Shown here: positions 1-12,367 of the stretch, in pieces
Layout: every line of letters starts with the position of its first letter
Position numbering within the stretch: the first letter of the stretch is position 1
Assembly (NCBI GenBank): GCA_001313065.1
Contig: BBFD01000108.1
Span: forward strand, 1 to 12,367
DNA from: Silvimonas sp. JCM 19000
Lineage (GTDB): Bacteria; Pseudomonadota; Gammaproteobacteria; Burkholderiales; Chitinibacteraceae
Length of the DNA stretch: 12,367 bases
Reading direction: 5' to 3'
Program-made: the position numbers and the translations under genes
Notes under the pieces: model-generated
The model's database searches: none
Seen by the model: only the letters and a program-made list of their open reading frames with translations
Told to the model about the DNA's origin: nothing

Positions 1-21
1 CGCCAGCGCGTGAGGGCGTGT

Positions 22-914
22 CTATTCCAGCGGATAGCCGCGCCGCACAATATCCATCACTTCGGGCGTTTCCGGCGTGCTGGTCAGTTTGACCGCGGCG
101 GGAAAGAACAACATCGGCGCCGGGTAAACCTCGACCACATGGCAATGCGGCAAGGCCCGATGCGCTACTTCAGATTCCGGCAGCAGCGCCATCGCTGCCA
201 TGCCGCCGTCCAGCAAATCCAGCACCAGTCCGGCCTCTGACACATGCACCACGTTGCCGGGTTCTGCGCCCATGGCACGCAACTGATCCTGAATGGTGTT
301 GTACGTGCCCGCGCCCGATAAGCGCCGGATCAGCACCAGCGGCAAATGATCGATGGCGCTTAATGGAAACGGCTTGGCCGGTGGCATCGGCATTAACGCT
401 TTGCTGATCACGGCCACTGTTTTTTTACGGGCGTCAGATTAACGGTTTCATAGCCTTCGGTTTGATACGGGCTTTGAATCAAGGCCACATCAATCCGCTT
501 TTTGTTGCAAAAAACAATTCGAGCTGGCTGGTATCCGAAACCAGCACATCCATTTCGACGTCGGGATAGTCGCGATACAGCGTCAGCAATAATGGCCGGA
601 AATAAACATTGAACAGATAAGACACGCCAATACGGATACGACGTTTACGCACCGTGCCTATCGACATGGTCTCGCGCTTGATGGTTTCCATTTCGCGCAG
701 CATTTCGCTGGCGCGTTTATATAGATGCAAGCCTGCAGGCGTGGGGGTCATGCCGCGACCATTGCGCGTCAGCAGTGTTACGCCCACTTCGTCTTCCAGC
801 TCTTGCAGGCGTTTGCTCAGCGGCGGTTGCGCAATGTTCAGCACGCGCGCGGCCTTGCCGATGGAGCCTTGTTCGACGATGCCGCAAAAAATAGCGCAAA
901 CGCTTTAAATCCAC
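22..914 (-). CDS. LysR-type transcriptional regulator (frameshifted in this sequence)
   Basis: LysR-family regulator: an N-terminal winged helix-turn-helix that binds DNA and a C-terminal periplasmic-binding-protein-like effector domain. Translation from the GTG at 914 gives MDLKRLRYF, then after one shift CGIVEQGSIGKAARVLNIAQ and PPLSKRLQELEDEVG, the standard LysR helix-turn-helix at residues 1-65. The effector domain follows and ends RRGYPLE at the TAG at 22-24. Three interruptions lie at A/T runs in plus-strand coordinates: A6 at 886-891 (5 expected), A6 at 509-514 with the adjacent T5 (two bases too many in total), and T7 at 420-426 (5 expected). Corrected length is about 295 residues, normal for the family. 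It lies downstream of the porin on the same strand and may control the porin, the beta-helix gene and the divergent decarboxylase operon; that role is inferred from position. The effector is unknown. Confidence 0.85.
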
Positions 915-934
915 GAGAACCCCTTGTCACGCCA

Positions 935-968
935 GCGACCACGCCTCGGCAATGCCCGGCGTGGTGGC
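935..968. other. Stem-loop between porin and LysR gene
   Basis: The 11-base arm GCGACCACGCC (935-945) pairs with GGCGTGGTGGC (958-968) with one mismatch and a 12-base loop. It follows the porin-proximal stem-loop at 976-1003, so the porin transcript would meet two hairpins in tandem before the LysR gene. No T tract follows on the minus strand, so termination is not certain; it could also slow RNA decay. Confidence 0.4.
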
Positions 969-975
969 GGTTTTA

Positions 976-1003
976 CCGGATCAGACCACATCGGTCTGAC
1001 CGG
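976..1003 (-). terminator. Stem-loop just after the porin stop, possible terminator
   Basis: CCGGATCAGACC (976-987) pairs with GGTCTGACCGG (993-1003) around the loop ACATC, giving 11 pairs with one bulged A. It begins three bases after the porin stop codon in the direction of transcription. The minus strand has no U tract after the stem (TAAAACC follows), so it is either a weak terminator or a 3-prime stabilising hairpin. Confidence 0.5.
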
Positions 1004-1005
1004 CT

Positions 1006-2094
1006 TTAAAAGTTTTCCCACATCCCCAGCACGGCGGCATGCTGGCTGCCGGCCTGGGCGCTGGTTGCGGCATTGCCACCCAGCACATAGGCGCCGTTCT
1101 TGCCGTTGTGCAGCGCGCTGTAAATCAGATAAACCTGCGCCCGTGGTGTCAGCACATAGTTGTAGGCCAGCGAATTCATGGTGGCATCGCTCTCGGCTAC
1201 GCCGGCGTCGCCGGTCCAGTTGCTGGCCTTGCCGCTTAACAGTGTCAGGATATGCCGCGGTGCCAGCGTGTAGCGCGCAGTCACGCTGCCGTAATTGCGC
1301 TCGCGATCTTTGCCGCTGCGGTTGATGTCTTGCAATTCGTCATGCTCAAGCAGCGCCGCCAGATACCAATGCCCCCACTGGTAACCGCCCACCAGCATAT
1401 TCATATAGCCGTTGCTGTAAAAGCCGGACGAGGTGGTCAGCATGCCGCGATTGGCCTGGCCGCCATAGGCCACGATCAGATTGCCGTTGCGATACACCGC
1501 ATTGGCCGAGGTGACGCTGCCCGAGGTTTTCTGGTTATTGCTGTCGGCCACATAGGCATACTGGATGCGTGAGCTAAAGCCATGCAGATCCGGGGTCTGA
1601 TAGCTGATCGAACTGCTGGTGCGCACGTCAAAGCCGCCCGTGGCCAGGCTGCCACCGTTTAACCACAAGGTGGCGTCGTTGCTGATGCCGGTCACGTACT
1701 GGAACATATTGCCTTCGATGCCATGCAGATCATCAACCGGCACCAGAAAATTGCCGGCCTTGAACGTGCCGTACTCGGGCGCGCTGATGCCGACAAACGT
1801 CTCGCGGCTGCCCCAATTGCCGCCGGTGGTGGTGGTGCCAAAGGCGATGCCGTTTTCGACCTGCCAGATCGCCTTCCAGCCGTTATCCAGTTTGTCGTAG
1901 CCGCGAAAACCGATACGCGAGGTATTGTTGGCCACCCGCATGCTCGATGTGGCGGTCGGGCCACCGCTGAGGGTGTTTTCGATATCCATATTGATGCGGC
2001 CATAAATCTCGACTTCTGCCTGCGCCAGCGCCGCAGTGGCGGCAAAGATGGCTGCCAGCAGCGCCAGGCGCTGGGCTTGTTGTTGGTTTTTCAT
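1006..2094 (-). CDS. Outer-membrane porin, Gram-negative betaproteobacterial (GBP) type
   Basis: Intact 362-residue general porin, expected to form a trimeric 16-strand barrel in the outer membrane for passive diffusion of small solutes. Residues 1-26 form a signal peptide with probable cleavage at ALAQA/EVEIYG. The mature start EVEIYGRINMDIE, the segment SRIGFRGYDKLDNGWKAIWQ (about 58-77), the ETFVGISAPEYGTFKAGN stretch and the C-terminal Phe (GMWENF) are typical of this family; the terminal aromatic residue is the Bam recognition signal. AAGG about 11 bases before the ATG is a modest ribosome site. The gene starts 54 bases after the beta-helix gene ends, with a hairpin between them. It has no A/T run above five bases and, unlike its neighbours, no frameshift. 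Substrate cannot be read from sequence; an aromatic acid is a guess from the nearby decarboxylase operon. Confidence 0.93.
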   Translation of the reverse strand: MKNQQQAQRLALLAAIFAATAALAQAEVEIYGRINMDIENTLSGGPTATSSMRVANNTSRIGFRGYDKLDNGWKAIWQVENGIAFGTTTTGGNWGSRETFVGISAPEYGTFKAGNFLVPVDDLHGIEGNMFQYVTGISNDATLWLNGGSLATGGFDVRTSSSISYQTPDLHGFSSRIQYAYVADSNNQKTSGSVTSANAVYRNGNLIVAYGGQANRGMLTTSSGFYSNGYMNMLVGGYQWGHWYLAALLEHDELQDINRSGKDRERNYGSVTARYTLAPRHILTLLSGKASNWTGDAGVAESDATMNSLAYNYVLTPRAQVYLIYSALHNGKNGAYVLGGNAATSAQAGSQHAAVLGMWENF

Positions 2095-2115
2095 GATGGT
2101 TCTGCCTTGCAGAAA

Positions 2116-2138
2116 GCACCGGCCACACAGGCCGGTGC
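2116..2138 (-). terminator. Perfect 9-bp hairpin between beta-helix gene and porin
   Basis: GCACCGGCC (2116-2124), loop ACACA, GGCCGGTGC (2130-2138). It lies 10 bases after the beta-helix stop and about 20 bases before the porin start. In the direction of transcription TTTCTGC follows, a poor U tract. It could partly terminate the beta-helix transcript or protect a processed 3-prime end, allowing unequal expression of two co-transcribed genes. Confidence 0.6.
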
Positions 2139-2148
2139 AGAAGGGCGC

Positions 2149-3684
2149 TTATTTGCGCAGGGCGAGCGGCTTGCTCAGCATCGAGGTCGCGCCGTCAACC
2201 GAGGTGACCGTGGCGGTGACATTGGCGGTGTTTTTTGCCGTCGATGCGCATGCTGAAGCTGGCCGTGCCGTTGTTATCCAGCGGCACCAGCACAAAGCCC
2301 AGGTAGCGTTCAGCTTCGGTGGCGTGGGCGTTGCTGTTGGCAAACAACTCCACCCGCGACAACGTGCCCGCCTGGCCGCTGATGCGACCGCTGACCAGCA
2401 CGGCCTTGCCTTCGGCACGGGCGCTTTCCAGAACGGGTGCGGCCAGATTGTGGTTGGGCATTGCTTCACAACCGGCGGGGCTGTTGCTATCGGTGCAGAT
2501 GGTTTCCAGTTTGCTCACGTCACCGTCGATGCCGCCGCCGCGATTGCCAACAAACACGGCGTGTTCCAGCCCCGGTACGCCAAACACGATCGCGCCCGCC
2601 TGGTCCGGTAAGCAGGCGCCACCGGCAAAGCAGCGTTTGATGTCCTTGCCGTTGTCGAACATGGTGTTCGCCGTTATGCGATTGACCGCCGGGCCGCTGA
2701 TACGGTTGATGCCAGGGCTGCCATCGGCCTGCGGGCTGCCTTGCGGCCGTACCGAAACCGCAACGCGGTTGCCGGTCATGATGTTGCCGTCGACGATATT
2801 GCCGGTGCCGCTCAGGGTTACACCCGACGACAGATTGGTAAAGGTATTGCCCGAGATAAAGTTGCGATTGCCCCAGTTGAGCTGGACGCCATCCGAATAC
2901 CCGGCAAAGTAGTTGTGCACCACCATATTGTCGTTGCCCCACAAGATCTCGATGCCTTGCGAGGTTCTTCGTTGCTGGCGTCCGTGGTGACGTGGTTATC
3001 GGCAATCAGGTTGTAGGCGGCGCCGCGCGTTAGCTCCATGGCGTCGCCGTTATTGCTGAACACGTTGCGCAGAATCTTGTTGTGGATGGTGGTGGTGGCG
3101 GTGGAGTTGCCTTTGCCATCGTCGCCGGTGGTCATGATGCCCGCGCCGCCGTGGTTGCCGCTGATGCGGTTGTCGTGAATTACGTTGTCATGCGCGCGAT
3201 TGATCAGCACGCCGATGCAGAAATTGCGCACGTCTATCCCGCTGATATCCACGTTCCGGGTATCGCGCAGTACCAGACCCGGGCTGGTGGTGGTGCGGAC
3301 ATTGGCGCCAAACTGGCCGGGCACCGCGCCGGGGCAGGCATGCGGGCCACTGCCGATATAGCCGGAGCCATCAATCGCCACATATTCGCCGCTATGCGCC
3401 CAGGCTGTGCCTTCAATGCGAACCGGGCCCAGTACCGGCGGCAGCGGTGATTTGATCACAATCACATACGGCGCTTTGCCAACGGGATCGATCTCGATGG
3501 CGTAATGGCCAGGCGCCTGGTTATTGGTTTCCAGCGCCCAGCGCAAAGAACCGGCTTCGCTGTCGTCGGCGTAGCGGGTGACATGCAGCACTTCAACACC
3601 GGTGGGCGCGTCGGCGTGAGCGAGGGCGGCAGAGAGCATCAATGGCAAAATCAATGCGACGGCGTGTTTACTATTTATTTTCAA
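2149..3684 (-). CDS. Secreted right-handed parallel beta-helix protein (frameshifted in this sequence)
   Basis: Start chosen at the TTG at 3684: it is preceded by AAGGGG seven bases upstream and followed at once by a signal peptide (LKINSKHAVALILPLMLSAALAHA/DAPTG). Longer in-frame translation upstream has no signal-like features. The mature part opens with a segment typical of beta-helix proteins (SEAGSLRWALETNNQAPG, about residues 43-60). Asn/Gly-rich repeats follow, such as DNVIHDNRISGNHGGAGI, NKILRNVFSNNGDAMEL, YNLIADNHVTT, NMVVHNYFAGYSDGVQL and NFISGNTFTNLSSGVTL, as in NosD/pectate-lyase-like coils. The C-terminal third looks like a beta-sandwich (GKAVLVSGRISGQAGTLSRVE). Two breaks: near 2965 one base seems missing (about GAAAGAACC expected), and T6 at 2231-2236 has one T too many. 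Corrected length is about 511 residues, ending PLALRK. No catalytic motif is recognised; it could be a polysaccharide-binding or lyase-like protein, exported to the periplasm or beyond. Confidence 0.8.
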
Positions 3685-3980
3685 TTTAATACCCCTTAAA
3701 AAATCGGCACAACAAGGTGGTCTTGAATACGGCCACTTATATTCAATGCAGAAAAGACCACTCCGCATTGCAATTCGGCAGCAATTAACCGCCCCTGCCC
3801 GAATCACAATGCAATGGGGTGGCGGGTATTGCAGCGGTCTGAGAGGGCGCGCGCAGAAACGCACGATTACGGTATGGCTTTATGCCGCCAGCAACGGGCT
3901 TTCTGGACGCGGTCTGCGTGGTATGCAAGCTGCACGCCTTGAATTTGCTAGCATTCTGGTAATTAAAGCCCGGCACAACT

Positions 3981-3994
3981 TTGATTTAAATCAA
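3981..3994. promoter_or_regulatory. Perfect FNR/Anr-type binding site
   Basis: TTGATTTAAATCAA is an exact match to the FNR-family consensus TTGAT-N4-ATCAA and is a perfect 14-base palindrome. For a leftward promoter, CAGAAT at 3953-3958 (4 of 6 match to TATAAT) would put the site centre 41.5 bases upstream of the start of transcription, the classic activating position for FNR. The rightward strand has no -10 element at that spacing; for the promoter proposed at 4076-4081 the centre would be near -100. The consensus match is seen; oxygen control is inferred. Confidence 0.6.
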
Positions 3995-4051
3995 GCGCAG
4001 CGGCATCAAATCGATTCCGTTTTGGTATGACTTTACCCACCAAAACAGTAT

Positions 4052-4081
4052 TTGGTTGCCAGCTTTGGACGGGCCTATATT
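4052..4081 (+). promoter_or_regulatory. Candidate sigma-70 promoter of the ubiD operon
   Basis: TTGGTT (4052-4057), an 18-base spacer and TATATT (4076-4081; 5 of 6 match to TATAAT). Predicted start of transcription is near 4088, about 50 bases before the UbiD ATG. The -35 is weak, which suits an activated promoter. Confidence 0.4.
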
Positions 4082-4083
4082 CC

Positions 4084-4098
4084 ATTCCGAATTCGAAT
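4084..4098. promoter_or_regulatory. LysR-type operator-like dyad (ATTC-N7-GAAT)
   Basis: ATTCCGAATTCGAAT fits the T-N11-A dyad bound by LysR-family proteins and overlaps the 12-base palindrome GAATTCGAATTC (4089-4100). It lies 40 bases before the UbiD start. If the promoter at 4052-4081 is right, the dyad covers the start of transcription, more like a repression site than the usual activation site; a different start site would change this. Confidence 0.4.
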
Positions 4099-4138
4099 TC
4101 ACCCGAATTAACCCGTGTTGGAATCTCGTGGAGAAATC

Positions 4139-5636
4139 ATGTCCGGCAATCCAGAATTGAATATTAAAAAAACGGCGTGCGCGATTTGCGTACGGCATTG
4201 GCGCTATTAGAAAGCTGCCCGGTCAACTGGCGGTCACTGATGTAGAAGTAGACCCCGAAGCCGAGCTGTCTGGCGTGTATCGCTACGTGGGGGCGGGCGG
4301 TACTTGCATGCGTCCTACCCGCCAGGCCCGGCCATGGTGTTTAACAAGGTCAAAGGCTTTGATAACTTCCGTGTGGCCATCGGCTTGCTGGCTTCGCGGG
4401 AACGCGTGGGCTATCTGCTGGGTTGCGAACCGGCCAGGCTGGGCCGCTTGCTGATGGATTCGGTCAAGCACCCGGTGCCGCCGGTGCTGGTGGGCGCCGA
4501 CAAAGCGCAATGCCAGGAAGTCGTGCATCGGGCCAGCGACCCCGGCTTTGATCTGCGCACGCTGCTGCCCGCACCCACCAATACCGAAGAAGACGCCGGC
4601 CCGTATTTCACCATGGGCATGTGTTACGCCTCTGATCCGGAAACCGGTGAATCAGACGTGACCATACACCGCTTGTGCATACAAAGCGCCGACGAAATCT
4701 CGATGTACTTTGTGCCTGGCCGCCATCTGGACGCCTTCCGCATGAAAGCCGAAGCCGCTGGCAAGCCACTGCCGATTTCGATCAGTCTGGGGGTGGACCC
4801 CGCCATTGAAATTGGCGCGTGCTTTGAGCCGCCTACCACCCCCTTGGGTTTTGATGAACTGACCGTCGCCGGTGCCATTCGTGGCCGTCCGGTCGAACTG
4901 GTGAACTGTCTGACCGTTAACGCCCGCGCCATTGCGCATGCCGAAGTGGTGATCGAAGGCGAGCTGCTGCCCAATGTGCGGGTGCGCGAAGATCAGAACA
5001 CCAATACTGGCAAAGCCATGCCTGAATTCCCTGGTTATACCGGGGAAGCCAAGGCTGCCGTGCCGGTCATCAAGGTTAAAGCGGTGACCCACCGCATCAA
5101 CCCGATACTGCAAACCACCATCGGCCCGAGCGAAGAACACGTGAGCATGGCCGGTATTCCCACCGAAGCCAGCATTCTGGCATGGTCGAAAACGCCATGC
5201 CGGGCAAGCTGCTGAATGTGTATGCGCACAGCTCGGGCGGCGGCAAATACCTGGCCGTGCTGCAATTTCGCAAAGTGGTGGAAAGCGATGAAGGACGTCA
5301 GCGCCAGGCCGCATTGCTGGCTTTTGCGGCATTCCCCGAACTCAAGCACGTGATGTTGGTGGATGAAGATGTTGATCTGTTTGATACCAATGACGTGCTG
5401 TGGGCCATGCAGACGCGTTATCAAGGTGACGTCAGCACCATCTTTATCCCTGGCGTGCGTTGCCATCCGCTGGATCCGTCGCAGATTCCGGAATTCAGCC
5501 CCAGCATCATCGCGGCCGGTACCTCGTGCAAAACGATTTTCGATTGCACGGTGCCATTCCACCTCAAGAGCCACTTCCAACGTAGCAAGTTCAAGGAAGT
5601 CGACGTCAAGCGCTTTTTTTGCCTGACTTTAAATAA
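4139..5636 (+). CDS. UbiD-family decarboxylase, gallate/hydroxybenzoate (LpdC-like) type (frameshifted in this sequence)
   Basis: Prenylated-FMN-dependent non-oxidative decarboxylase acting on aromatic or alpha,beta-unsaturated carboxylic acids in the cytoplasm. GGAG at 4130-4133 sits five bases before the ATG. Corrected, it is about 498 residues, the usual family length. Recognisable parts: VRDLRTALALLESCPGQL (13-30), GVYRYVGAGGT (45-55), SDVTIHR (172-178), FDELTVAGAIRG (238-249), GKAMPEFPGYTG (291-302), GPSEEHVSMAGIPTEA (329-344) and ELKHVMLVDEDVDLFD (401-416). By family analogy Arg178, Glu240 and Glu296 are likely active-site or cofactor residues. The pattern recalls Lactobacillus gallate decarboxylase LpdC more than ubiquinone-pathway UbiD. 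Breaks: A7 at 4166-4172 (5 expected); single missing G near 4226 (CCCGGG expected) and near 4329 (GGGCCC expected); missing C near 5180; T7 at 5614-5620 (5 expected, giving a TAA at 5634-5636; as printed it would end at 5643). The substrate is not certain. Confidence 0.88.
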
Positions 5637-5661
5637 GCACTAAGTAGTCGAGGAAACGGTT

Positions 5662-6273
5662 ATGGAAACACGGCGCATTGTGGTGGGCATCAGCGGAGCC
5701 ACGGGGTTTCAGTATGGCGTCAAGGCGCTGCAGTTATTGCGATCACAATCGATAGAAGTGCATCTGGTGATCAGCAAGGGCGCAGAAATGACGCGCAAGC
5801 TGGAAACCGATTACACGCGTGAAGAAGTCCTCGCGCTGGCAGATGTGGTGCATCCGCTGGAAAACCTGGGGGCGTCGATCGCCAGTGGTTCGTTCAAGAC
5901 CCTGGGCATGCTGGTGGCGCCGTGTTCCATGCGTACCTTAAGTGCGATCGCGCATTGCATGTCGGACAACCTGCTGACGCGGGCTGCCGATGTGGTGCTG
6001 AAAGACCGGCGGCGGCTGGTGCTGATGGCGCGCGAGACGCCGCTCAGCCTGGGCCATCTGCGCAATATGCAGGCGGTCACCGAGATGGGCGGGATTGTGT
6101 TTCCGCCGGTGCCGGCGCTGTATCAACGCCCGCAAACGCTGGACGACATCATCATGCATAGCGTCGGTCGCGCGCTCGATCTGTTCGGGCTGGACGTCAA
6201 ACATCTGCCGCGTTGGGGTGAGCCCGTGGCGCAGGCAGACGTCCACACCGCTACCGCACGCGTCACACTCTAA
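5662..6273 (+). CDS. ubiX: UbiX-type flavin prenyltransferase
   Basis: Intact 203-residue enzyme that joins dimethylallyl phosphate to FMN, making the prenyl-FMN cofactor used by UbiD decarboxylases. Visible motifs: GISGATG (residues 9-15, FMN phosphate region), VISKGAE (36-42), SIASGSF (72-78), [11 protein letters not shown] (87-97), [14 protein letters not shown] (101-114) and [17 protein letters not shown] (117-133). These are hallmark flavoprotein/UbiX segments. GAGGA at 5650-5654 precedes the ATG. It begins 25 bases after the corrected UbiD stop, so it is surely co-transcribed, and dedicated copies of this enzyme commonly sit beside catabolic UbiD genes. The symbol also covers names such as pad1, bsdB or ecdB used for catabolic copies; a separate housekeeping copy may exist elsewhere. 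It has no A/T run above five bases and no frameshift. Confidence 0.95.
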
Positions 6274-6294
6274 AAAAAATAAAGGGGTTCTAGC

Positions 6295-7015
6295 ATGCTC
6301 GTTGGACCATTTGTAAACGGCACCGCCGTGGTATTGGGCGGCGCGACCGGGGCGTTTTTTTTAGGCAATCGTTTACCGGAGCGCTTGCGGCTGGCTTTGC
6401 CGCAGACCTTTGGCCTGGCGTCGATGGCGCTGGGTATAGTGCTGATCGTCAAGGTCAAGTATTTGCCCGCTGTGATTCTGGCGCTGATCCTGGGCGCGCT
6501 GATCGGCGAAATGCTGTGCGTTGAAACCGCCATCGGCAAGCTGGGGGCCAAGGCCCGCACCGTCGTCGACAAGTTTTTTTTCCGCCCCAGGAAGGGCTAA
6601 GCCAGGAAGAGTTCATCCTTAAGTTTGTGGCCATTCTGGTGATGTTTTGCGCCAGCGGCACCGGCATTTTTTTGGTTCGATGCATGAGGGCATGACGGGC
6701 GACGCGTCCATCCTGTACGTCAAGACCATCCTCGACTTGTTTACTGCGGCCATTTTTTGCGACGTCGCTGGGCTATTCGGTGGCCACCATTGCCATTCCG
6801 CAGCTGGCCATCCAGCTTTGCCTGGCTTGGGCGCCGCCGCCATCCTGCCGCTGACCACGCCCGACATGATGTCGGACTTCTCGGCCGCCGGCGGCATGAT
6901 CATGCTGGCAACCGGCTTGCGCATTTGCGGGATCAAGGTGTTTCCGGTGGCCAATATGTTGCCGGCGCTGTTTCTGGTCATGCCGTTCTCGCACTACTGG
7001 CACGTGTTCTTCTGA
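6295..7015 (+). CDS. DUF554 (YqgA/YdfK-like) membrane protein (frameshifted in this sequence)
   Basis: Integral inner-membrane protein of unknown function with about six to seven hydrophobic segments. AAAGGGG lies about eight bases before the ATG at 6295. Family features: start MLVGPFVNGTAVVLGGATGA, then GNRLPERLR (about 24-32), ILALILGALIGE, the FGSMHEGMTGDASILYVKTILD segment, and TTPDMMSDFSAAGGMIMLATGLRICGIKVFPVANMLPAL near the end, all in family order. Breaks: T8 at 6574-6581 (6 expected), T7 at 6667-6673 (5 expected), T6 at 6753-6758 (5 expected), and one missing base near 6828 (AWAAAAILPL restored). T8 at 6355-6362 keeps frame but may also be over-long. Corrected length is about 238 residues. 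Its place between UbiX and a flavin-type barrel protein in an aromatic-acid operon is unusual; transport of substrate or product is a guess. Confidence 0.85.
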
Positions 7016-7039
7016 ACCGGATCCATGCCATACGCCAGA

Positions 7040-7062
7040 CAGCCCGGCCAGGTGCCGGGCTG
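7040..7062 (+). terminator. Hairpin after the DUF554 gene
   Basis: CAGCCCGGC (7040-7048), loop CAGGT, GCCGGGCTG (7054-7062): a perfect 9-pair stem starting 25 bases after the DUF554 stop. Only TTGCG follows, so there is no good U tract. It may partly terminate the operon before the YhbP-like gene at 7098. Confidence 0.5.
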
Positions 7063-7097
7063 TTGCGCTGATCAACACATTATCAAGGCCATCCGCG

Positions 7098-7544
7098 ATG
7101 CCACCCACTGCCGAGCCCGCTATCCCGCCCCGCATGATCGACTTTATCCGCGAGCACCATGTGGTCAGCCTGGCCACTTGCCATGCCGGCGTGGCATGGG
7201 CAGCCAGTTGTTTTTATGCATTTGATCCGCTGACCCGCGCGCTACTGATATTGTCCAGCCCCGACACCTTGCACGGCGTACACATGCTGGCTAATCCACA
7301 TGTGGCAGGCACCATTTGCGGTCAGCCTGAAGGCGTGCGCGAAATTCGCGGTATGCAGTTCAGCGCGGTGGCGACGCCGCTGCAAAAGCCCGCGGCTGAC
7401 GCGGCATTGCAGATCTACTTTGCCCGCCATCCCATAGCGCGCCTGCACCGCGCCCAGATATGGCGCTTGCAGCTGACGCAACTCAAGTTCACCGATAACC
7501 GTTTGTTCTTTGGTCAGAAAACGCTATGGCCAGCGTTGGATTGA
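7098..7544 (+). CDS. YhbP-like (UPF0306) FMN-binding split-barrel protein
   Basis: Intact 148-residue protein related to E. coli YhbP and the pyridoxamine-phosphate-oxidase-like split barrels. Supporting segments: HHVVSLATCHAGVAWAASCFYAFD (about 20-43, first strands), HGVHMLANPHVAGTICGQPEGVREIRGMQFSA (the family V-A-G-T-I/V-x-G-Q and I-R-G-x-Q-F pattern, about 59-90), and QLKFTDNRLFFGQKTLW at the C-terminus, which matches the family KFTDN-GFGKK-W ending. The function of YhbP is not established; flavin binding is inferred from fold. An AAGG about ten bases upstream supports the ATG at 7098; the second ATG at 7134 is a possible shorter start. Position 80 bases after the DUF554 gene suggests it belongs to the operon, with a hairpin in between. 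No frameshift, and its longest A/T run is the T5 near 7209. Confidence 0.88.
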   Translation: MPPTAEPAIPPRMIDFIREHHVVSLATCHAGVAWAASCFYAFDPLTRALLILSSPDTLHGVHMLANPHVAGTICGQPEGVREIRGMQFSAVATPLQKPAADAALQIYFARHPIARLHRAQIWRLQLTQLKFTDNRLFFGQKTLWPALD

Positions 7545-7646
7545 TGCTTCGAGTGATGGGGCTGGACGCGGCGCCGAGTCCCACGTTACGGACTTGTATT
7601 GGTCACCCTGCCACGGCCGGATGCGCTGTCAATGTAGCCCTGGGGT

Positions 7647-7662
7647 AGGTGGTGACCCACCT
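7647..7662. repeat. Intergenic inverted repeat, copy 1
   Basis: AGGTGG-TGAC-CCACCT, six-base arms. It shares the core GGTGG...GACCCACC with the longer copy 43 bases further on. Short GTGGGT/ACCCAC hairpins of this kind are often scattered between genes in proteobacterial genomes. Confidence 0.5.
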
Positions 7663-7704
7663 TGCAAAGTGCGCGGCAATTGCGCTGTGGTTCAAGGCTG
7701 TGTT

Positions 7705-7738
7705 GGGTGGGTCTTGACCCACCCTATGCATTTTTTTT
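7705..7738 (+). terminator. Inverted repeat copy 2 followed by T8, likely terminator of the operon
   Basis: GGGTGGGTC (7705-7713), TT, GACCCACCC (7716-7724), then TATGCA and eight Ts (7731-7738). The stem is perfect over nine pairs (eight with a realistic four-base loop). With the T run on the plus strand it can terminate transcription from the ubiD operon, about 160 bases after the YhbP-like stop. The six-base gap between stem and T run is longer than ideal, and the T run may be over-called. Confidence 0.5.
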
Positions 7739-7800
7739 CAAAGATCAACCGTAGCCAGCGCGAGCGACGCAGCAACAGGGTGGCGCATGACCCGCGCTGC

Positions 7801-8944
7801 TTAGCGCCACGCGCTACCGACTTCGATATACCACGCGTTCTGCTCTTTGCTATGCGCCGCATCAATGCCGACTGCCAGGCCGAGCTTGCGCGCAATCAGA
7901 TAGCGAAACCCGGCCCCATAGGCCACCGGTGTCTCAGCGTCGCTAAACGAATGCCACTTGCCATAAGCCCGGCCCGCACCGGTAAAGCCCAATACCGACC
8001 AGCGCGGGTCTACATTCCAGCGCAATTCGGCTTCGGCCATCACGGCGTTCTTGTCTTGATAACGTCCGCGTTGCACCCCGCGTTGGTCGATATAGCTGGG
8101 CATAAAAGGGCACGTCACCGCTGGTGAATTTGGTCGCGCCGCGTAAGCCCAGCACAAAGTCTTTGCTCAAGGGCAGCCAGGTAAATACGCGCAGATTGTA
8201 GCTATCAAAATCACGGTCGCTACCGAGGCCGCCGCGGGCGTATTGGGCTTCGAGTTCGCCGTAGGTGCCTTTATTGGGGAAGAACATATTGTCGCGCGTG
8301 TCGTAATCGACCACGACGCCGCCCTTGCCTATGGTCATATCGTGCTCAGGATTGGGCAGTTCTTGCGCGATGGGGCCGGTGAAGCGCGCCTCAGCAGAAA
8401 AAAATAGGTGTAGCGCGGCCCGATAAACCACGGCGTGCTGCCGAGGCGGAACAGCACCTGCTGCATCAGAAACGTGCCATTCAATTGATAAGAGCGCGCG
8501 TTGTTCAGTAAGCCGTAGTACTCGGTATTAAGATTGGTCTTGCCGATGGCGCCCAGGTAGCGAATGCGGTCGCCGTCCCAGGTATGAAAATGCATCAGGC
8601 CGGCGCCCCAGGTGCCGTTCTCGGTGCCGGCGGCGCCCACACCGGTGATGTTGGGCGGCTCCATAATGCCGGTTTCTTTGGCCTTGGCACCGGCCTCGGC
8701 CATCGATTCATCAAAAAAAACAGCAAGCCCAGGCCGCCGCCATAACCGATCGCGGGCTCAGTGATGACTGTTGGAACCGGCAAAAAAGCCTTTGTGGTTG
8801 AGCAAATAGTCGCTGACGTCAAACGCGCCGTCTTGCGGATCATGAAAACTGATCCGTCCGCACGCGCCCCGGTGCTGCTGAGCATCAGGCGGCGGCGAGG
8901 GTAGTAGCACGGGCGATCGAGCGCGCGGAAAAGGGTGCAATCAC
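7801..8944 (-). CDS. BamA/TamA-family outer-membrane barrel protein (frameshifted in this sequence)
   Basis: Stand-alone surface-antigen (D15/Omp85-like) barrel of about 380 residues, much shorter than BamA and without visible POTRA repeats. The start is best placed at the GTG at 8944, with AAGG six bases upstream and a signal peptide (VIAPFSARSIARATTLAAA-LMLSSTGARA). The mature protein has DPQDGAFDVSDYLLNHKGFLP, VITEPAIGYGGGLGLLFFDES, GVVVDYDTRDNMFFPNKGTYGE (the D-x-R-D-N-x-F-P-x-G-T pattern of Omp85 C-terminal strands), YIDQRGVQRGRYQDKNAV (R-G family signature) and RWSVLGFTGAGRAYG, ending YIEVGSAWR. Breaks: a missing base near 8890, one near 8851 (GTTTTC), A6 at 8782-8787 (5 expected), A8 at 8713-8720 (6 expected), A7 at 8398-8404 (5 expected) and an indel near 8105. 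Function beyond an outer-membrane barrel is unknown. Confidence 0.8.
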
Positions 8945-9065
8945 GGTTGGCCTTATGAACACGATTGAGCGGTTCACTTAGCTTAGGTGAGGTTTTTTTT
9001 ACAAAGACCCGAGCTTTTATGTAAATAATCCAGCGTTATCTAGGATCATTCCGTAAGCAATGCGC

Positions 9066-9735
9066 TTAGCCTTGGCCGCTTTCGATCTTGCTGATGGCCT
9101 CGTCCAGAATACGGGCTACACGCGCCTGTTCATCCGCGGCCGCGCCGATCTTGCTCAGCATCAGCCGCTTGAGTTTGATGCGCACCGCTTCCAGTACCGG
9201 GCTAAACGGGCCTTCGGCCGGATGCCGACCGCGATCGCCAAACACTTCGCGGATGCGGTCCATTTTTTTCGCCCAGCCAGGTCAGCTTGCCCATGATGGC
9301 TTCGACGATATGGCGGTTGGCATCCAGATGCGTGCGGCCTCATCGGTAATGCTGTAACGCTTTTTTGCTGCCTTCTTGTTCGACGGTGGCGTGGCCCAGT
9401 TCTTCCAGATAAGTCAGCGCCGGGTACACCATGCCGGGGCTGGGGGCATAAAAACCATTGGTGCGCTCGTCCAGCGCTTTGATCACTTCGTAGCCGTGGC
9501 GCGGGCTTTCTTCCAGCAGGGCCAGGATGATCAGTTGCAGATCGGACGAAGACAACTTGCGGCCGCCGCGAAAGTCGCGACCACCGAGTTCGCTTTCGTC
9601 ATCGCCGCCATGGCCGCGACCGCCAAACGGGCCGCCGCGATGGCCGCCACGCCCGATCATGTGATGGCCGTGATGGCCGTGGTTGCGATGGAATTCGTGA
9701 TGTTTACGGCGCATTTCTTCAAAGAATTGACGCAT
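9066..9735 (-). CDS. PadR-family repressor with His/Gly-rich N-terminus, YqjI-like (frameshifted in this sequence)
   Basis: AAGGAG (9743-9748) lies seven bases before the ATG at 9735, so the start is MRQFFEEMRRKHHEFHRN rather than the upstream MKYP. Residues 9-60 are His-, Gly- and Arg-rich (NHGHHGHH, GRGGHRGGPFGGRGHGG), like the metal-binding extension of E. coli YqjI, a nickel/iron-responsive repressor. The PadR winged helix follows: SSSDLQLIILALLEESPRHGYEVIKALDERTNGFYAPSPGMVYPALTYLEELG, with the typical S-P-G-x-V-Y-P-x-L signature. The C-terminal helices (WLGEKMDRIREVFG to ISKIESGQG) resemble a dimerisation region. Breaks: T6 at 9361-9366 (5 expected), one missing base near 9333 (GAGGGCCGC expected on the minus strand) and T7 at 9263-9269 (6 expected). 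Corrected length is about 222 residues. Metal sensing is inferred from the extension. Confidence 0.87.
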
Positions 9736-9975
9736 GGGATTGCTCCTTGGGTATTTCATAAAATATATCGTACGACATATATCGCAAGATATAGATCGAC
9801 CCGTCTGCGGTCAAGCCGGGAGCAGGGCGCCAGCTGACGAACGTCATGCCGCCCCGGCCATGCGCGTGCAGCTTTTACATATCTGACCTGGAGAAGCGTA
9901 ACGCCCTGCATTACAACTAAGTCACATCGCGCGGCACAGCGCGGCCCGCCTTATGACTTGTTGCAAGGGAATAGC
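9736..9975. other. Divergent intergenic region between PadR and the carbohydrate-binding-like gene
   Basis: No gene is supported. The left part holds the PadR promoter and operator. A short dyad TGACG-AA-CGTCA lies at 9835-9846. No rightward promoter stands out; TTTACA near 9874 lacks a good partner -10. Whether the PadR protein also controls the rightward gene cannot be read from the sequence. Confidence 0.5.
9760..9798 (-). promoter_or_regulatory. PadR promoter with overlapping operator
   Basis: A near-perfect 18-base inverted repeat, ATATATCGTACGACATAT (9763-9780; one mismatched pair), is centred on TCGTACGA. The octamer ATATATCG recurs at 9763-9770 and 9777-9784, and a degenerate copy lies at 9789-9798. 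On the minus strand TTGCGA (9782-9787), 16 bases and TATTTT (9760-9765) form a plausible promoter, so a bound repressor would block it. AT-rich inverted repeats over the promoter are typical of PadR autoregulation. Assignment to this protein is inference. Confidence 0.6.
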
Positions 9976-12367
9976 ATGTTGAAATCGATACGCTGGATGG
10001 CGTTGATCCTTACCGGCTGGCTGCTGGTCAGTAGCGCCCACGCGGCGAGTGCGCCCGCTGCCAAACCGTGGCCACATCAATTTACCGTCGACGGCACCAC
10101 GCTCACGCTGTACCAACCGCAGCTGGATAACTGGCAAGCAACCAGCTGAATGCACGCATGGCCGTCGCCGTCAAAAAAAAGGCAGCAGCACCGGGCCGGA
10201 TGGCAAAAAAAGCATGATCTACTGGCCTATGGCGTGGCGTGGGTGTCAGCGCAAACGCTGACGGACAAAACCGCGCGCACGGTACGGCTGGACAATATCA
10301 ATGTCGACAAAGCCAGCTTTCCGACCGAGCCCGACAATGAAGCCAACTATCTGGCTCTCATCCGCAAGGCTGTGCCGCAAAAAAACGCTGGTGGTGGGGC
10401 TGGATCAACTGGAGCGTCGCTGGCCATCAATCGTGCTGATGAGAAAGTGGCGTCGGTGCCGGTTAATAACTCGCCGCCACAAATCCTGTTTTCGTTTGAG
10501 CCCGCCTTGCTGGTGTTGATCGATGGCGAACCCGCGCTCAAGCCTACCCGCATTGCCGGGGTGCAGCGCGTAATCAATACCCGCTCCTTGATCCTGGTGC
10601 AGAACAACGCCTGGTATCTGTACTTTGCCGGGCATTGGGCTACATCCAGCGGGCCGACCAGCGCCTGGTTGCCGGTCAAATCAGTGCCCGCCGGCCTGAC
10701 CGAGGCGATGCAGCAAGCGGTGGCCGCCAAGCTGGTCGACGTGATGGATAAACCGCCCGAAGCGATGAAGAAGACGTTGGCAGCGGGTAAATATCCCGAT
10801 ATCTACACCGCCACCAGCCCGGCCGAACTGATCATGATCGACGGTGAGCCGCGCTTTGAGCCGATTGCCGGCACCAACCTGGCCTATATCAGCAATACCG
10901 CGTCTGACGTCATCATCGACCAAGCCGATGGCAGTGGCGACACCACCTGGTATGTGTTGTTGTCGGGTCGCTGGTTTAGCGCACCGGCCAGCAAAGGGCC
11001 GTGGGCCTGGGTGGCGGGCGATAAACTGCCGGACGATTTTTTTGAAAATTCCGTCCGAGAGCGCCAAGGGCTCGGTGCTGGCGTCCATCCCCGGAACGCC
11101 GGAAGCACGCGAATCGCTGATCGCCAATTCGATTCCGCAAACGGCGACGGTCAATCGCCAGCAAGCGCATCTCAGCGTGAGCTACGACGGTGGTAATGCG
11201 CAGTTCAAACCCATCGATAACACACCGCTGGCCTATGCCTGGAACACGGCGGTGCCGGTCATCCGGGTGACCGACAGCGAGTTCTATGCAGTACAGAACG
11301 GGGTCTGGTTCAAATCGCCGTTGCCGTCCGGGCCGTGGGAAGTCGCCACCAGCGTGCCCGCCGTCATCTATACCATTCCGCCCGCTTCGCCCTTGCATTA
11401 CGTGACCTATGTGCGCGTGTATGGCTCTTCCGGCCAGGTGGTGTATGTCGGCTATACGCCGGGCTATTACGGCACCGTGGTCAGTGGCGGCACCGTGGTC
11501 TACGGCACCGGCTATGTTTGCGATGCCTGGATCGGTGACGTCTGGTACGGCTGCCCGGCTACCTACGGCTATAACGTGGCGTTTGGCTACGACCCGTTTG
11601 TAGGCTGGACTTTTGGCTTTGTCGCGGGCTGGGCGTGGGCCTCGGCCTGGTATGGGCCGTATTGGGGGCCGTGGTATGGCTGGTATGGGCCGTCGCCGTA
11701 TTACTGGGGAGGCGGCGTTGCTGTGGGCAATGTCTATGGCCGCTGGGGTAATACCGTGGCGCAGGGTACGCGCGCGGTATGGTCGAATCCGTGGACCGGC
11801 AATTATGGCAGCGGCGTGCGTGGCAGTTTTTTTTATAACCAGGCCACCGGGGGGGCATGGCGTGGGCTATGCCGGTTACAACACCAATGCCTACACCGGC
11901 ACCACCACCGCCCGCGCTGGCGGCGCGCGTTACAACCCCGAAACCGGGCGCATTGTGGCCGGGCAGGGCGGCGCTGCCGGTAATCCGTGGACCGGCAATG
12001 CGGGCGCCGCCGTGAGCAAAACCACGATCAACACCAATACGGGCCGGGTAACTCAAAGCGGCGGTGTCACCACCCGCACCAATCAAGGCGCAACCGCCGC
12101 GGGCGGCTTTAATACGCGCGGCGCAGGTGGCGATGCCAACGGCCGTGGCTACGTGCATTACGATGCCTCGACTGGCGATGTGACGCATGGTGGCGTGGTC
12201 AATGCTAATGGCAACGTGTATGCGGGCAAGGACGGCAATGTATATCGCTACGACAAAGGCGATGGCTGGCAAAAAAAAGTGCAGCCCGATGGCTCGTTTC
12301 AACGAACCACGCCGCCTGCCGATAGCAACGTGGATAACGACAGACTGGCGCGGGACCGCAGCGCTGA
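9976..12367 (+). CDS. Secreted carbohydrate-binding family V/XII-like protein, 3-prime end outside window (frameshifted in this sequence)
   Basis: AAGGGA lies five bases before the ATG at 9976, which starts a signal peptide (MLKSIRWMALILTGWLLVSSAHA/ASA). The protein matches, from memory, a proteobacterial family labelled carbohydrate-binding V/XII, of unestablished function. Family segments in order: FTVDGTTLTLYQPQLDNWQ (about 36-54), VPVNNSPPQILFSFEPALLVLIDGEPAL (about 160-190), PAELIMIDGEPRFEPIAGTNL, VLLSGRWFSAPASKGPW, GTPEARESLIANSIPQTATV, AVQNGVWFKSPLPSGPWEVATSVPAVIYTIP, HYVTYVRVYGSSGQVVYVGYTPGYYG, then a Gly/Tyr/Trp-rich tail (WYGPYWGPWYGWYGPSPYYWGGG). After 11790 come Gly/Thr/Asn-rich repeats with NPWTGN twice. 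Breaks: missing G near 10133; A8 at 10173-10180 (6); A7 at 10205-10211 (5); A7 at 10379-10385 (6); a missing base near 10418; T7 at 11037-11043 (6); G7 at 11849-11855 (6). T8 at 11827-11834 and A8 at 12271-12278 keep frame. The frame is open to 12367, at least about 795 residues. Confidence 0.82.

Follow-up and report, generated by a model that had tools for sequence, protein, structure and literature searches.

Frameshifted genes and over-long A/T runs in a Silvimonas contig almost certainly reflect consensus sequencing errors

Contig BBFD01000108.1 of Silvimonas sp. JCM 19000 was analyzed over its whole length of 12,367 nucleotides, referred to here as the window. Pfam matches and open reading frame (ORF) calls place ten genes in the window. 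Seven of these are broken by frameshifts, and three (a Gram-negative porin, a UbiX-like flavoprotein, and a YhbP-like protein) are intact and serve as internal controls. The frameshifts are almost certainly errors in the consensus sequence, an ordinary data artefact rather than a feature of the organism. This reading is based on the excess length of runs of A or T (A/T runs) over an intact relative, a difference in behavior that separates runs of four from those of five or six, and purifying selection acting on three broken genes. From these sequence comparisons we infer a technical cause. A preliminary description, made from the letters alone, had counted six broken genes among nine, and this is corrected here to seven of ten. 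It had also described the three intact genes as free of A/T runs above five; they are indeed intact, but an A8 run at 6272-6279 overlaps the stop codon of UbiX.

Seven genes were aligned in a frame-aware manner to intact homologues, one of the checks that the preliminary description had proposed. The homologues were the proteins P0002 and P0122, two ORFs of the locus L128 (LysR and DUF554), and three ORFs of the locus L127. The alignments contain 28 frame breaks: 17 extra-base breaks at A/T runs listed in the preliminary description, one extra base at a G7 run (11849-11855), and 10 sites with missing bases. The LysR gene has three breaks relative to an L128 ORF that is 38% identical, the beta-helix gene has two relative to P0122 (503 amino acids (aa), 72%), and the UbiD gene has four relative to P0002 (498 aa, 90%). 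The DUF554 gene has four breaks and a codon insertion relative to its L128 homologue, with the break at 6574 lying within a gapped stretch. Across the broken genes the aligned breaks number two to seven per gene. At 420-426, 509-514, and 6574-6581 the break could be placed only approximately, with the aligner setting it nearby in weakly conserved sequence, and the excess at 509-514 could be split with a T5 run at 499-503. The run at 4166-4172 precedes the aligned part of UbiD. It is counted as a break because the ATG at 4139 is out of frame with the downstream coding frame.

With this run included, 18 of the 29 breaks lie at A/T runs, or 19 of the 29 if the G7 run is counted. All 21 run coordinates in the preliminary description are exact, and all 18 of its frame-breaking runs are accounted for, 17 by an aligned break and 4166-4172 by the start codon. 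Its statement that most breaks fall at A/T runs agrees with this count, but eleven breaks (the ten missing-base sites and the over-long G run) were not on its list. Three further runs of eight (beginning at 6355, 11827, and 12271), said there to keep frame, each appear in the alignment as one extra codon, as described. Together with one spacer indel, this makes 33 indels in 12.4 kb (29 breaks, 3 in-frame, and 1 spacer). The 18 breaks fall within 1.8% of the bases (binomial P about 1.6e-24). This test is circular in part, since each insertion adds to the run in which it lies, and comparison with L127 is therefore the better test.

L127, in genome G401, matches window positions 7801-12367, the right-hand 37%, at 82.9% identity and in the same gene order. 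Its counterparts of the broken Omp85-like, PadR, and large protein genes are open frames of 380, 223, and 862 aa. Measured between the same flanks, every A/T run of at least six in the aligned part (12 of 12) is longer in the window than in L127, by one base in five cases, two in four, and three in three; 1 of the 12 is a spacer run. When only the run itself is counted (the strict count), all 12 are still longer; the excess is then smaller at 10173 and 11827 and zero at the G7 run. The inferred length of a run is its called length minus the difference to L127. As L127 is a diverged relative, true run lengths come from frame and alignment and not from direct measurement. Eight runs of inferred length five are written with 5, 6, 6, 7, 7, 8, 8, and 8 bases, and five of inferred length six with 7, 7, 7, 8, and 8. 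The preliminary description had proposed that true runs of five or six are shown as 6-8, which fits these values. Seen from the other side, L127 has nine A/T runs of at least five. Seven of these meet a run of the same base in the window, which is longer in all seven cases, and at the remaining two the window has substitutions in place of a run.

The excess is absent at shorter runs. By the strict count, none of 13 A/T runs of four has a gap at the run, vs. 12 of 13 runs of inferred length five or six that are longer in the window (Fisher P 2.7e-06). G/C runs of four show no net difference in 15 of 15 cases by the wide count (eight columns either side) and in 14 of 15 by the strict count. Both G runs of five keep their length, and the G7 run is over-long in the wide count.

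The same three genes were used to estimate selection. The ratio of nonsynonymous to synonymous substitution rates (dN/dS), computed in the L127 frame with 43 gapped codons excluded, is 0.050 for the Omp85-like gene (368 codons), 0.153 for the PadR gene (215 codons), and 0.041 for the large protein gene (781 codons). No nonsense codon occurs in the window among the 1,364 aligned codons of these genes. Selection has maintained all three since their lineage separated from G401. An indel count this high in genes that otherwise look maintained is the pattern expected of a faulty consensus. The systematic over-calling of homopolymers put forward in the preliminary description is thus supported by the 12 longer runs, the 13 ungapped runs of four, and selection. 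These results also bear on another explanation, genuine decay of the genes to pseudogenes as the genome or strain degenerates, which is very improbable. Decay would accommodate seven broken genes of ten and the occurrence of both extra and missing bases, and if very recent it would be compatible with low dN/dS. It is opposed by dN/dS values of 0.04-0.15 for three broken genes out of seven, by the lack of nonsense codons in their aligned parts, and by the UbiD gene, which encodes the same residue as its intact relative at 441 of 485 positions. It also leaves the preference of extra bases for A/T runs of at least five unaccounted for.

The run-length spectrum of the window is distorted, with too few A/T runs of five and an excess of runs of 6-8. 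The window has 36 A/T runs of four, 4 of five, 7 of six, 9 of seven, 9 of eight, and none of nine or more. A first-order Markov simulation expects 49.2, 12.8, 3.2, 0.92, and 0.21 runs of four to eight, respectively, and 0.06 of nine to ten. Runs of at least six are evenly split by base (A 12, T 13). G/C runs are without such a surplus, with 9 runs of five, 0 of six, and 1 of seven vs. 19.2, 4.9, and 1.3 expected. For comparison, 15 fetched loci, each 9 kb or longer with a guanine-cytosine (GC) content of 56-63%, served as a yardstick, with counts scaled per 12,367 nucleotides. The yardstick maximum for runs of at least six is 14.4 vs. 25 in the window, and for runs of at least eight it is 1.2 vs. 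9. The ratio of runs of at least six to runs of five is 6.25 (25/4) in the window and at most 0.92 across the yardstick loci. Few A/T runs of five together with many of 6-8 are a cheap flag for contigs of this kind.

A further explanation, modeled on a proposal for insect endosymbionts, is that the A/T tracts are real and that RNA polymerase rescues the genes by slipping on them. The available part of PMC3017870 describes Blochmannia as extremely AT-biased, with many tracts of at least nine, and lists eight Blochmannia vafer genes with tract frameshifts that are possibly corrected in this way and are otherwise in frame. The window resembles this case in having frameshifts within poly-A/T runs. 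It differs in its composition (59% GC) and in the length of its A/T runs, the longest of which have eight bases. Each broken gene has two to seven aligned breaks, ten breaks are missing bases away from long A/T runs, and one spacer run is inflated as well. These observations also speak against slippage, and we consider rescue of this kind extremely improbable. A GC-rich bacterium in which A/T tracts of at least five are truly expanded by 1-3 bases, with proteins made through slippage or another frame correction, has an equally slight chance of being the explanation.

If the frameshifts are consensus errors, the contig probably comes from a nanopore assembly that was left uncorrected or was polished with long reads. 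The base-caller or polisher would then add 0-3 bases at A/T runs of at least five, and away from such runs one or two bases would occasionally be dropped. The switch between runs of four and five would fit a 5-mer boundary. The excess may arise in base-calling or, alternatively, in over-compensating polishing, and the underlying genome most likely has intact genes.

Comparable errors have been described for nanopore data. As stated in the excerpt seen of PMC5889714, the Scrappie base-caller over-calls homopolymers of 5-15 bp, with A/T slightly over-represented. Over-calling and a lean toward A/T are thus common to Scrappie and the window, although the Scrappie data are human and at read level, whereas the window is a bacterial consensus. 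In polishing with Racon and Medaka, according to the accessible portion of PMC7500977, insertions outnumber deletions and run length is over-predicted even where most reads are right. Extra bases, over-long runs, and genes split by frameshifts occur both there and in the window. The assemblies in that source are fungal and without an obvious error pattern, whereas errors in the window begin at runs of five. Homopolymer indels are given as a leading residual error of nanopore assemblies in the passages seen of PMC9262707 and PMC11232133. A search of the literature for nanopore and homopolymers together with the presumed bacterial group returned no match.

Nanopore is the likely platform. Pyrosequencing, Ion Torrent, and uncorrected PacBio consensus are all prone to homopolymer length errors, and the same artefact from one of these platforms would be compatible with consensus error as the cause. 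Flow-based platforms usually err by less than three bases on a five-base run. In the part aligned to L127, three runs of inferred length five each carry an excess of three bases, a larger error than this, and one of these other platforms is the less likely source, though a real candidate.

The missing bases follow a different distribution. One or two bases are lost per site, and each site is at least 21 bases from any A/T run of at least five. The motif CTGG/CCAG, picked post hoc, lies within 5 bases of six of the ten sites (background 21.7%, P 0.0097) and within 8 bases of the same number (background 29.2%, P 0.042). This could hint that base modification, a methylation-type cause, disturbs base-calling there, and it is taken as a lead only.

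Several observations weigh against consensus error of the kind proposed. No inflation is seen at three A/T runs of five: 9450-9454 in the PadR gene, which is the sole A/T run of five in the part aligned to L127 and has the same length there, 2087-2091 in the porin gene, and 7211-7215 in the YhbP-like gene. The inflation, which the preliminary description had read as systematic, is not universal. The wide count is non-zero at 4 of the 13 A/T runs of four; of these, one lies beside a missing base, two lie in poorly alignable stretches, and one lies beside the run at 11037. The A/T specificity is weakly tested, by the two unchanged G runs of five and the over-long G7 run. Over-calling with an A/T excess also runs opposite to the usual nanopore tendency, which the part seen of PMC8486125 describes as a slight under-estimate of longer runs, with long C/G runs worse than A/T; the same part also has large over-estimates for some short runs. 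Finally, two contigs are listed with the porin at 100% identity, the longer one having 125,143 nucleotides, which suggests that the same organism is assembled elsewhere. No near-identical full-length UbiD is found among the best 120 of 6,490 matches, where the next best after the piece from the window itself is 90% identical. UbiD on the 125,143-nucleotide contig may be absent, broken too, or unlisted. This mismatch between porin and UbiD is the one observation that consensus error leaves unexplained.

Pieces of the broken genes have already entered the searched protein collection. A UbiD piece (P0001) and a beta-helix piece (P0121) sit there as proteins and could pass for pseudogenes or short proteins. 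The features of the window are collected in Table 1.

Table 1. Features of the 12,367-nucleotide window, with over-long runs, extra in-frame codons, and approximate positions of missing bases.
Feature	Position	Strand	State	Pfam match or ORF	Over-long runs and extra codons	Missing bases
LysR-type regulator	22..914	-	broken	HTH_1 2.3e-12	A/T 420-426, 509-514, 886-891	
Gram-negative porin	1006..2094	-	intact	Porin_4 3.2e-35; 362-aa ORF		
NosD/beta-helix protein	2149..3684 (start approximate)	-	broken	PF05048/PF13229	A/T 2231-2236	2960
UbiD-family decarboxylase	4139..5636	+	broken	UbiD domains	A/T 4166-4172, 5614-5620	4213, 4323, 5177
UbiX-like flavoprotein	5662..6273	+	intact	Flavoprotein 5.9e-39; 203-aa ORF		
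DUF554 protein	6295..7015	+	broken	PF04474 on both pieces	A/T 6574-6581, 6667-6673, 6753-6758; extra codon 6355-6362	6825
PNPOx-type (YhbP-like) protein	7098..7544	+	intact	PNPOx_N 8.5e-07; 148-aa ORF		
Omp85-like outer membrane protein	7801..8945 (start approximate)	-	broken	Omp85 2.9e-07 on one piece	A/T 8398-8404, 8713-8720, 8782-8787	8095, 8851
Spacer T run	8993..9000	.	only comparable spacer run		longer than counterpart in L127	
PadR-type regulator	9066..9759	-	broken	PadR 1.9e-14	A/T 9263-9269, 9361-9366	9340
Large protein	9976..12367 (cut by contig end)	+	broken	three pieces searched, no match	A/T 10173-10180, 10205-10211, 10379-10385, 11037-11043; G 11849-11855; extra codons 11827-11834, 12271-12278	10138, 10415

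Other copies of the region were sought in several collections. UbiD-DUF554 DNA has matches in 14 of 43 genomes from the family of genome G179, none exceeding 361 query bases, and the match with the best E-value is 69% identical. The beta-helix protein has no match in the same 43 genomes in a search without a positive control. A plasmid search with the window gave one match of 72.9% identity covering 3% of the window, and the three L127 genes matched three plasmid records with at most 5% covered. Viral contigs searched with the porin gave no relative.

The left part of the window (1-7800) may be an accessory island. The match with L127 begins at 7801, plus one 37-base repeat. G401 gave no match for UbiD-DUF554 DNA, the DUF554 piece, or the beta-helix protein, the last in a search without a positive control.

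The beta-helix, UbiD, UbiX, porin, and LysR genes are neighbors within 22-6273. In their source labels, the beta-helix relatives are named 3-dehydroshikimate dehydratase, and some UbiD relatives are named 3,4-dihydroxybenzoate or gallate decarboxylase. Going by these labels, a putative dehydroshikimate-to-protocatechuate-to-catechol cluster is plausible for these genes.

A palindrome, GGTGGGTCNNGACCCACC, is present in the spacer at window positions 7706-7723. Its pattern occurs at no place in genome G416 and 442 times in genome G401 (4.9 Mb; reversed control 0). Among the G401 places listed, occurrences are often grouped, at spacings of roughly 50-120 bases.

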